Under the pieces are notes generated by a model. That model ran no database searches. It was not told where the DNA came from and saw nothing but the letters and a program-made list of their open reading frames with translations. The position numbers and the translations under genes were made by a program. 64,000 nucleotides of DNA from the NCBI RefSeq assembly GCF_900156475.1, contig NZ_FTNR01000005.1:1-64000 (forward strand). The letters run 5' to 3'. Positions 8,475 to 10,917 of this stretch are shown piece after piece (positions within the stretch are counted from its first letter, which is position 1; every line of letters starts with the position of its first letter). This DNA comes from Natronorubrum thiooxidans (lineage in GTDB: Archaea > Halobacteriota > Halobacteria > Halobacteriales > Natrialbaceae).

Positions 8475-10301
8475 TTAGCCGTCCGTATCCCAGACATCGG
8501 CCAGCGGACTCGAGGACGAAGACGACCGTCCCGACCGACGAGAGCGTGTTCGTCTCGAGCGGTCGGGACGCTCACCACCGCTGCTCCCTCGAGTCCCACC
8601 ACTGTCGCCCGTAAGCGCCGCGGACGGGTCGAACGCCGGCAGATCCGGCTGACTCATCCGATCGACCTGCACCGCAAACCAGTCGGGCATGTCCGTTCGC
8701 GCGCGTTCGAAGCAATCCAGCAGACTCAAGTCGGCGAGATACGTCGCCCCGTAATCGTCGGGCGCGCGGACGACGCGGCCGCAGGCTTGAATGATCGTGC
8801 GCAACGTCGTCCGGTAGTACCACGCCCACTGGCCGTCCTCGAGTCTGTGGGCGACTCGAGAATCGCCCGTGTTGAGAAACGGGGCCTTACAGAGCACCTG
8901 CCAGCGACAGAGGTCGCCTTTGAGATCGAGGGCTTCCTCCATCTTCACCGAGAGAAAGACGTCGGGCTCGTCGCTGGCTTTCCACTCCTCGAGGGCGGCG
9001 TCGCGGCCGTCGCGGTCGTGTGTCCGAACGCGGTCGCCGACGCCGAAGTCGGCGAGTAACTCGGCGAGTCGTTCCTGAATGCTGTAGGAGTGGGCGTGGA
9101 TCAGCCCCTTTTCGTCGGGGTGGTGTTGCATGAGCCGGACGATCGTGCGGGCGATCTTCGGCGTCGTCTCGGATCGCTGGTCGTAGGTCATCTTCCCCTG
9201 CGTGACGTCGTACAGCGGCCGGTTCTCGACGGGGAAGGTGTGTTCGACGTCGACCAGCGCGACGGTGGCAGGATCGAGCCCGACCTGCCGGCAGAACGCC
9301 GCCTTGTTGAGGATCGTCGCCGACAGCAACGCGAACTTGTTGCCACGGTCCCAGACCGTGTGCTGCAGATATTTCTCGGGGCTCATCGGCTTGATCGTCA
9401 GCGGCCCGCCCGCGGGGTCGTCGTCCTCGTCGCGGCGCTGTGCACGCGCGCTCGAGGGCTCGGACTGGTCGACCAGCCACGTCGTTGGACTCTGTGGGTC
9501 GCGATAATCCGAGACGAACCACTCGAGTTCGCCGATGAGTTCCTGGAGTCGATCGCGTGTGCGGACCTCGGTCGCCGAGAGGGCGTCCTGAGCGAGGAGG
9601 TCGTCTTTCCGGCGCGTACAGATCTGGGCGACGTTTTCGGCGTACTGGACGGCGCGCTCGAGGCCGTCGACCTCGGGAACGCGGAGGTCGTCCCAGAACG
9701 GCACCGTGCGCGGCCCGAGCTGGATCGTCGCGTACATTTCGGCCCACTCGGCGAGGCCGTGGGCCTCGTCGACGACGACGACGTCGCGCTTGCGAAACAC
9801 CTCGCTGCCCGCGGTCTGCATGAAGTAGGCGAGCGTCATCGCTGCGATCTCTCTGTTCGAGGCGATCGCTCGATCGGAAAAGTATGGACAACGGTGCTTG
9901 ACCGAACAGTCGTAGCCGCGCTCGCGAACGCAGGGAGCCTGATTGACCGGCGTCTCGCGTTCGTCGGGCAGGATGCAGGTGTAGTTCGACTTCCCGCGGA
10001 TAACGTTCAGATCCGCGAGGAGATCGTCGGCCGCGACGTCGTCGAGCTGTGAGACCTGCGGGGTCGTGTAGTAGGCCCCGGTCGCGTCGCTGGGGTCGGC
10101 CTCGTCGACACGACGGGCACAGCCGGCGACGGCGCGGGCGAGCAGTGACTTGCCGCTGCCCGTCGGCGCGCGCACGAGCACGACGTCGTTGCCGGCCGCG
10201 AAGGCGTCACGAATGTCACGGAGGGCTTGTTCCTGGGTCCCGCGATAGCTCGGCGCGGGAAACTCATCGAAGATCCGCTCGGGATTCACCGTTCGATCCA
10301 C
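8475..10301 (-). CDS. Rad3/DinG-type iron-sulfur DNA helicase
   Basis: 608 residues, superfamily 2 5'-3' helicase. Walker A APTGSGKS at 45-52, DEAH at 178-181, and four cysteines C109, C124, C132, C138 between motifs I and II that match the [4Fe-4S] cluster domain of XPD/DinG helicases. Helicase C-terminal motifs include SVKMEEALDLKGD and ACGRVVRAPDDYG (motif VI with the arginine finger). The last about 60 residues are low complexity, rich in Arg, Ser and Gly. A role in repair is inferred from the family; haloarchaea have several paralogues, so an exact name is not given. Confidence 0.9.
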   Translation of the reverse strand: MDRTVNPERIFDEFPAPSYRGTQEQALRDIRDAFAAGNDVVLVRAPTGSGKSLLARAVAGCARRVDEADPSDATGAYYTTPQVSQLDDVAADDLLADLNVIRGKSNYTCILPDERETPVNQAPCVRERGYDCSVKHRCPYFSDRAIASNREIAAMTLAYFMQTAGSEVFRKRDVVVVDEAHGLAEWAEMYATIQLGPRTVPFWDDLRVPEVDGLERAVQYAENVAQICTRRKDDLLAQDALSATEVRTRDRLQELIGELEWFVSDYRDPQSPTTWLVDQSEPSSARAQRRDEDDDPAGGPLTIKPMSPEKYLQHTVWDRGNKFALLSATILNKAAFCRQVGLDPATVALVDVEHTFPVENRPLYDVTQGKMTYDQRSETTPKIARTIVRLMQHHPDEKGLIHAHSYSIQERLAELLADFGVGDRVRTHDRDGRDAALEEWKASDEPDVFLSVKMEEALDLKGDLCRWQVLCKAPFLNTGDSRVAHRLEDGQWAWYYRTTLRTIIQACGRVVRAPDDYGATYLADLSLLDCFERARTDMPDWFAVQVDRMSQPDLPAFDPSAALTGDSGGTRGSSGGERPDRSRRTRSRRSGRSSSSSSPLADVWDTDG

Positions 10302-10448
10302 GGCGTGGCCGCATCCTAAAGGCTACGGACCGTTGCTCGGAGTGAACTGTCACGCCGGCTGGCCGACGACCGAAACCGGCCATAGGCACCGGCTACCCGC
10401 GGGTAGTCGGACGATTACAAACACGGAATCCGCCCTCGAGTGAGATAC

Positions 10449-10536
10449 GGAAGGGTCGCTCAGCGGTAGAGCACCGCGGTGTCACCTGACCCGCGGCGGC
10501 ATCATGCCTCGTGGCGTTCAAATCCCACCCCTTCCG
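10449..10536 (+). ncRNA. tRNA-like RNA with an aberrant anticodon arm
   Basis: 88 nt that fold like a class II tRNA. Acceptor stem GGAAGGG (10449-10455) with CCCTTCC (10529-10535). D arm GCTC-AGCGGTA-GAGC (10458-10472). T loop TTCAAAT (10517-10523), flanked by GTGG-C-G and CCCAC with one bulged C (10515). Extra arm GGCA-TCA-TGCC (10498-10508). The anticodon position is abnormal: CCGCGG (10474-10479) pairs with CCGCGG (10491-10496), leaving 11 nt in which GTC and GAC can also pair, so no 7-nt anticodon loop forms. A T5 run follows directly. It could be a degenerate tRNA, or a tRNA with an insertion whose 5' half would show anticodon GTC. Confidence 0.55.
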
Positions 10537-10537
10537 C

Positions 10538-10542
10538 TTTTT
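10538..10542 (+). terminator. T5 terminator after the tRNA-like gene
   Basis: Five consecutive T residues start two bases after the 3' end of the tRNA-like fold, the usual arrangement for archaeal termination of stable RNA genes. This supports the locus being transcribed in the plus direction. Confidence 0.5.
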
Positions 10543-10588: not shown

Positions 10589-10674
10589 TCATACGGTCTG
10601 CTGTAACGATTTACCGGCGCGACCGCGAGCCGTCCTGCGGTCGGGCCGGAAATGACGTACAGCAGATCGTATCA
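10589..10674. repeat. Palindromic 3'-end element, type 1, copy a
   Basis: 86 bp. Left arm TCATACGGTCTGCTGTA (10589-10605) pairs with right arm TACAGCAGATCGTATCA (10658-10674). An inner stem pairs CCGGCGCGACCGC with GCGGTCGGGCCGG around a short loop. The terminal TCA at 10672-10674 is the stop codon (TGA) of the minus-strand gene that ends there. Same length and outline as the copy at 38533. Confidence 0.85.
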
Positions 10675-10917
10675 CAGGACGTCGAGTCGCGACGTCTCCT
10701 CGTCGACCTGCTCGAGACGCTCGATATCTGTAGCGGTCGGCTCCCCCTCGTCGGGCAACGCCTCGATACAGGGATAACACAGCAGATGACTCGTCCCGTC
10801 GGCAAGTTCCAGCGTCATCGCGGATCCCTCACTCTCCTCCCCGAACGTCCAGAGGTTGGCGATGCCACCGGTGACCGTGACGGGCCGGCCACAGCCGTCA
10901 CAGGAGCCGTTTGCCAT
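10672..10917 (-). CDS. Small zinc-ribbon-like protein
   Basis: 81 residues starting MANGSCDGCGRPVTVTGG. Two CxxC pairs, CDGC (near 6-9) and CYPC (near 48-51), suggest one bound zinc. The rest is acidic with no further motif. The ATG at 10917 is chosen because it places the first CxxC at the N-terminus; longer versions have poor codon use. Its stop codon lies inside the palindromic element. Divergent from the cysteine-cluster gene at 10997, with a short shared promoter region (GTATATATACAG near 10968). Function unknown. Confidence 0.7.
   Translation of the reverse strand: MANGSCDGCGRPVTVTGGIANLWTFGEESEGSAMTLELADGTSHLLCYPCIEALPDEGEPTATDIERLEQVDEETSRLDVL

Follow-up and report, generated by a model that had tools for sequence, protein, structure and literature searches.

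A likely non-decoding tRNA-like RNA of Halobacteria whose anticodon arm is replaced by a closed hairpin

The Natronorubrum thiooxidans DNA analysed here, a window of 64,000 nucleotides, encodes an 88-nt RNA (10449..10536, + strand, from G1 to the discriminator G) that is recognizable as tRNA-like from its sequence, its fold, a match to the tRNA model and its homologues. What does a tRNA-shaped RNA do if it carries no anticodon? A sequence-only reading had left a choice between a tRNA mimic, a tRNA with a short insertion and a pseudogene. The comparative evidence assembled below favours the mimic. We consider it likely that the locus encodes a functional, stand-alone tRNA-like RNA of Halobacteria that works off the ribosome and does not decode; this judgement excludes the amino-acid donor step discussed further below.

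Fold of the RNA and comparison with canonical tRNAs

The acceptor stem consists of seven base pairs, GGAAGGG/CCCUUCC, formed by a 5′ strand at 10449..10455 (+) and a 3′ strand that, together with the discriminator G73, occupies 10529..10536 (+; paired bases 10529-10535). The D arm, GCUC-AGCGGUA-GAGC (10458..10472, +), has a 4-bp stem (GCUC/GAGC) and, in the fold and alignments, includes A14, G15, G18 and G19. In place of the anticodon arm there is a closed hairpin, CCGCGG-U-GUC-ACCU-GAC-CCGCGG (10474..10496, +), which folds into 6 bp, a bulged U, 3 bp and an ACCU tetraloop. An extra (variable) arm, GGCA-UCA-UGCC (10498..10508, +), is followed by the T arm, GUGG-C(bulge)-G / UUCAAAU / CCCAC (10511..10528, +). 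CTTTTT follows the discriminator, and CCA is not encoded at this locus. The predicted minimum free energy of -42.1 kcal/mol lies below the average of shuffled sequences, -29.3 (z -3.7), and 0/200 shuffles were as good.

The fold thus reproduces the two-part helix with a tetraloop proposed from the sequence alone, and sequence and fold together bear out the bulged C in the T stem and the extra arm. The same reading had called the acceptor, D and T elements canonical, which holds for the acceptor, the D arm and the T loop and fails for the T stem with its bulge. The features expected of a decoding tRNA are divided: a 7-bp acceptor, a D arm and a T loop of the form GUUCRANUC are present, and the RNA lacks an unbulged 5-bp T stem, an anticodon loop of 7 nt with U33 and any conserved anticodon that can be read.

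The Rfam tRNA model (RF00005) gives the RNA 34.6 bits (gathering threshold 29; E 8e-5), a score exceeded by each of the genome's 45 canonical tRNAs (44-73 bits). Those 45 tRNAs all have an unbulged T stem, and a GGAAGGG acceptor was sought among them and found in none. ARAGORN called no tRNA gene on the window RNA, and on the relatives it returned Glu, Arg, Cys, an undetermined tRNA or no gene, with anticodons that disagree. These inconsistent calls and the variable hairpin loop agree with the earlier statement that no standard anticodon can be read with confidence. A standard gene finder mostly overlooks this RNA or assigns it conflicting anticodons, and copies in other databases may already figure as undetermined tRNAs.

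Two known RNA classes were considered and rejected. A selenocysteine tRNA does not fit, since RF00005 is the only matching model, there is no UCA anticodon and the tRNA-Sec model has no match at E up to 1. A tmRNA does not fit either, as ARAGORN finds none and the conserved RNA stops at the discriminator.

Conservation of the structure and distribution in Halobacteria

Compensatory change is pervasive in the helices. Among 54 distinct sequences, 136 double-sided compensatory cells were counted, compared with 31.6 ± 6.1 in shuffled and 7-22 in slid controls, and 94% of cells were paired; this alignment was fitted to the model and is biased towards structure. An independent MAFFT alignment of 40 sequences pointed in the same direction (22 vs 7.9). 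Acceptor, D arm, T loop and T-stem bulge are all retained in about 150 distinct sequences. The bulged 6/5 T stem occurs in 150/151 of them, the remaining one being a bacterial tRNA matched by chance, and takes two main pairings, GUGG-C-G/CCCAC and GCG-U-GG/CCCGC. The discriminator is G in 119/151 and A in 31/151. All seven acceptor pairs are unchanged in 54/54 distinct sequences, many of them collected with a pattern that fixes the acceptor; model-based searches free of this constraint returned the same acceptor except in a divergent copy (L305) and a decayed one (L304). In the divergent copy, compensated exchanges affect both the acceptor (A-U to U-A) and the D stem.

The replacement hairpin behaves differently in its stem and in its loop. 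All 9/9 pairs covary, and the loop is unconstrained in sequence and size, with 3-6 nt in the first hairpin loop of 136/151 distinct sequences and no conserved triplet. The proposed short insertion with the anticodon GUC is contradicted by this freedom of the loop. Taken together, the alignments show that the upper half of the tRNA (acceptor, T arm, D arm and elbow-forming bases) is fixed by selection, and that the anticodon arm has been swapped for a closed hairpin whose sequence does not matter.

The RNA is widespread. A 161-base query recovered clear homologues in most of about 60 Natrialbaceae genomes, and throughout the family the RNA is flanked by one gene for a Rad3/DinG-like helicase and another for a small CxxC protein. 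A covariance model was then built from 40 family members, followed by an exact two-gap pattern run across 391 Halobacteria genomes. The pattern matched in 174/391 genomes and 44/86 genera, among them Natrinema, Natrialba, Natronococcus, Haloferax, Haloarcula, Halorussus, Haladaptatus, Halobellus and Halogranum, and a reversed control pattern gave 0 matches. The count of 174 is a lower bound, because a second model recovered eight more intact copies among 40 pattern-negative genomes. The sole match outside the archaea was an ordinary bacterial tRNA hit by chance.

The RNA keeps to a small number of stable positions on the chromosome. Of 158 distinct loci, 70 have the Natrialbaceae position beside the helicase/small-protein pair, and 45 lie 3′ of a succinate dehydrogenase flavoprotein gene (Haloferax, Haloarcula and other groups). 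Another 17 or 18 adjoin glycosyltransferase, epimerase or polysaccharide deacetylase genes (Halorussus and Haladaptatus groups), and the remainder are spread over a few other positions. Whether related genera keep the locus had been left to be checked, along with the prospect that no relative has a conserved copy; the locus proves syntenic in the family with copies across the class, and the homologues contradict that prospect. A literature search that covered few subscription journals found no description of such a tRNA-like RNA in haloarchaea.

The RNA is usually single-copy where present and has no match in many genera. It is dispensable, being missing from these genera and, in one genome (G006), reduced to a decayed syntenic remnant. 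Both this remnant (L084) and another in G003 (L089), each around 1500-1640 of the respective sequence, sit at the syntenic position by the helicase gene. An intact copy is present at another place in G003 (L073), and none was found in G006. A further decayed copy is L304 in G263. Near the relocated copy of G003, a protein encoded at L073 2-745 resembles the T-loop methyltransferase TrmY by eye, a candidate identity in a single case.

Two variant forms were also observed. In the Haloarculaceae type (L167, L174, L210, L296-L302), the hairpin loop is larger and has a conserved CCAG core, UGCCAGAA or CUCCAGCA; tetraloops occur elsewhere. A second, rarer tRNA-like RNA has a GAAAGGG acceptor, a long extra arm, a normal T stem and a 5-nt hairpin loop, again with no anticodon loop. 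It occurs in 9/391 Halobacteria genomes, sometimes alongside the first type in one genome (L137 2001-2085, -; L139 2001-2089, -; L147 2001-2086, -; L149 2001-2088, +).

Promoter-like box, neighbouring genes and 3′-end duplications

A TATA-like promoter element, TTACAAA (10415..10421, +), is centred about 31 nt 5′ of G1, and positions 10414-10424 are conserved in 48 syntenic loci. Majority identity across these family loci is 91% in the RNA and 92% in the box (10414-10424), compared with 66% in the spacer and 46% in the downstream flank; the segment 5′ of the box has a mean majority of 0.74. Because box and RNA are conserved and the spacer and downstream flank much less so, the profile is that expected of a transcribed RNA gene driven by a promoter of its own, from which we infer transcription. 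A GTA at 10403-10405, about 10 bases 5′ of TTACAAA, is conserved at 0.98-1.00 in the family and is possibly a further promoter element. The T5 run (10538..10542, +) previously taken as a terminator is present 3′ of the RNA and could act as one, but flank comparison shows that it is not conserved in relatives.

Both neighbours are conserved in the family. The helicase gene lies upstream in divergent orientation (8475..10301, -), and the gene for the 81-aa CxxC protein lies downstream in convergent orientation (10672..10917, -). The latter protein had no match in NCBIfam.

In 32/155 loci, the 3′ end of the RNA, from T loop to acceptor, recurs in one to three further copies within 450 bp downstream, and none occurs upstream (0/155). 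Since the extra copies are always 3′ and never 5′, the site is taken to be used for integration or duplication; tRNA genes often serve as integration sites. Loci of the window's own type are affected in only 2/74 cases, with no downstream copy in 72/74, so integration does not account for the conservation. The duplications form tandem units of about 100-170 bp 3′ of the gene (L146 2099-2537; L128 2106-2252; L082 1586-1713; and, on the minus strand, after the gene in L127). Each unit contains a T-loop sequence in inverted orientation and an inverted pair of the GGGATTTGA/TTCAAATCCC kind, with the tRNA-like 3′ end last. Their make-up suggests leftovers of integrating or mobile elements.

The window's type was sought in viral contigs, phage records and plasmids without a match. 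A copy of another type occurs on the Halorientalis plasmid pHOS100 (L326 16001-16090), 5′ of an orc1/cdc6 replication gene; this plasmid also bears surface-polysaccharide genes and two PIN-domain/AbrB pairs. An origin from phages, plasmids or viral contigs was rejected for the window's type, the one plasmid copy belonging to the other type.

Possible roles and known tRNA-like RNAs

The tRNA parts retained here are precisely those on which RNase P, tRNase Z and the CCA-adding enzyme act, and elongation factor 1A grips the T stem of tRNAs. We propose that the RNA is transcribed from its own promoter and that the normal tRNA enzymes would trim it and add CCA. The missing anticodon and the T-stem bulge at the EF1A grip site would then exclude it from translation, a step that the universal occurrence of the bulge fits. 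The RNA could then be a ligand or substrate for some protein that recognizes its acceptor stem and elbow. As the specific mechanism, we tentatively rank first that an anticodon-blind aminoacyl-tRNA synthetase charges the RNA and a non-ribosomal enzyme uses it as an amino-acid donor; the need for charging would explain why the acceptor end is fixed.

Candidate partner enzymes were sought in three families. FemAB-like transferases occur in 26/38 genomes with the RNA and 15/27 without it, and show no genome-wide association. Their genes lie within a few hundred bases of the RNA in one genus only (L067, L157), and GNAT-family genes of the FemAB-like kind share a plasmid with the RNA in another genus. 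A FemAB-like transferase was rejected as an obligate partner, given that it adjoins the RNA in just two genomes of one genus and lacks a genome-wide association. Aminoacyl-phospholipid synthases (aminoacyl-phosphatidylglycerol synthase, PF09924) were found in 0/48 genomes, and cyclodipeptide synthases (PF16715) gave no match in a search whose control likewise had no match anywhere. As none of the three families lent the donor model support, we hold it only tentatively, about on a par with a decoy or scaffold role.

Such a role would make the RNA an uncharged regulator that titrates a tRNA-binding protein (a processing or modification enzyme, a synthetase or a nuclease) or whose hairpin is displayed to a target, which is a possible reading. 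It competes with the donor step only, and the structural interpretation is common to both. Non-proteinogenic tRNA-like RNAs with roles of this kind exist, such as tRNA-Other of Bacillus cereus (PMC3399842). The tolerated loss of the RNA and the CCAG core kept in the larger loops of Haloarculaceae members are likewise consistent with a decoy or scaffold. However, the acceptor end is fully conserved, beyond the need of a hairpin scaffold, and the apical hairpin outside Haloarculaceae is a variable tetraloop that therefore offers no conserved seed for base pairing.

The remaining explanations are far less probable. That the locus is retained mainly as an integration (att) site, the RNA being incidental, draws on the strictly downstream 3′-end copies, their unit structure and the plasmid copy, but we regard it as very unlikely: most loci of the window's type have no extra copies, viral contigs and phage records lack a match, as do plasmids for this type, and an att site needs neither a conserved 5′ half, a promoter-like box nor compensatory hairpin changes. 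Still more improbable is a decoding tRNA in disguise, in which an insertion or atypical intron hides the anticodon until processing. Introns are known from archaeal tRNAs, and in this genome the genes for tRNA-Met and tRNA-Gln are interrupted. Against this, the hairpin varies widely in length and holds no conserved triplet to restore, every copy also bears the T-stem bulge, and the canonical set (n=45) serves every amino acid except Trp without the tRNA-like RNA; a guessed pattern for a Trp tRNA gene found no match in the genome. A decaying tRNA gene, the third option of the sequence-only reading, would account for the low tRNA score, the bulged T stem and the missing anticodon, but is scarcely credible beside the compensatory covariation, the class-wide conservation, the kept synteny and a near-invariant sequence in several families. 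True decay looks different, as in G006, G003 (L084, L089) and G263 (L304).

Returning to the donor model, its boldest form would be a new tRNA class, charged by an anticodon-blind synthetase, kept off the ribosome by its sealed anticodon arm and bulged T stem, and dedicated to transferring an amino acid elsewhere, possibly in the chemistry of cell-surface glycans. The glycan link is suggested by the one group of loci that adjoins glycosyltransferase, epimerase and polysaccharide deacetylase genes, and we regard this form as rather unlikely. If the non-decoding nature of the RNA is confirmed, many Halobacteria, including the laboratory genera Haloferax and Haloarcula, keep a tRNA-shaped RNA that natural selection has severed from decoding. 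Its small size, its usual presence as a single copy and its dispensability in some species make deletion feasible in a tractable model, and the role of a tRNA without an anticodon becomes directly testable.

Compared with a canonical elongator tRNA (RF00005), the RNA shares the acceptor, D arm, T loop, elbow-forming bases, length class and a score above gathering, whereas it has no 7-nt anticodon loop, U33 or anticodon, a bulged T stem and the lowest tRNA score of its genome. It resembles selenocysteine tRNA in its long extra arm and G73 and differs from it in its 7-bp acceptor and the lack of a UCA anticodon. The staphylococcal non-proteinogenic tRNA-Gly species are FemX substrates and retain a Gly anticodon. 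By analogy, T-arm changes that withhold a tRNA from the elongation factor would work alike in both, but the haloarchaeal RNA has no anticodon and FemAB-like enzymes do not track it. The tRNA-like domain of tmRNA, plant-virus tRNA-like structures and the tRNA-like element upstream of Haloferax 5S rRNA are parts of larger RNAs. They share with the RNA a tRNA upper half without a working anticodon; unlike them, it is a separate molecule of about 77-110 nt with no attached coding or processing partner. The Bacillus cereus pseudo-tRNA tRNA-Other, compared here by its description, is likewise a stand-alone tRNA-like gene outside translation and near foreign-DNA integration sites, and is reported within larger, iron-responsive transcripts of that bacterium (PMC3399842). 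In contrast, the haloarchaeal RNA occurs class-wide in archaea, has its own promoter-like box and carries a covarying hairpin where a tRNA would have its anticodon arm.
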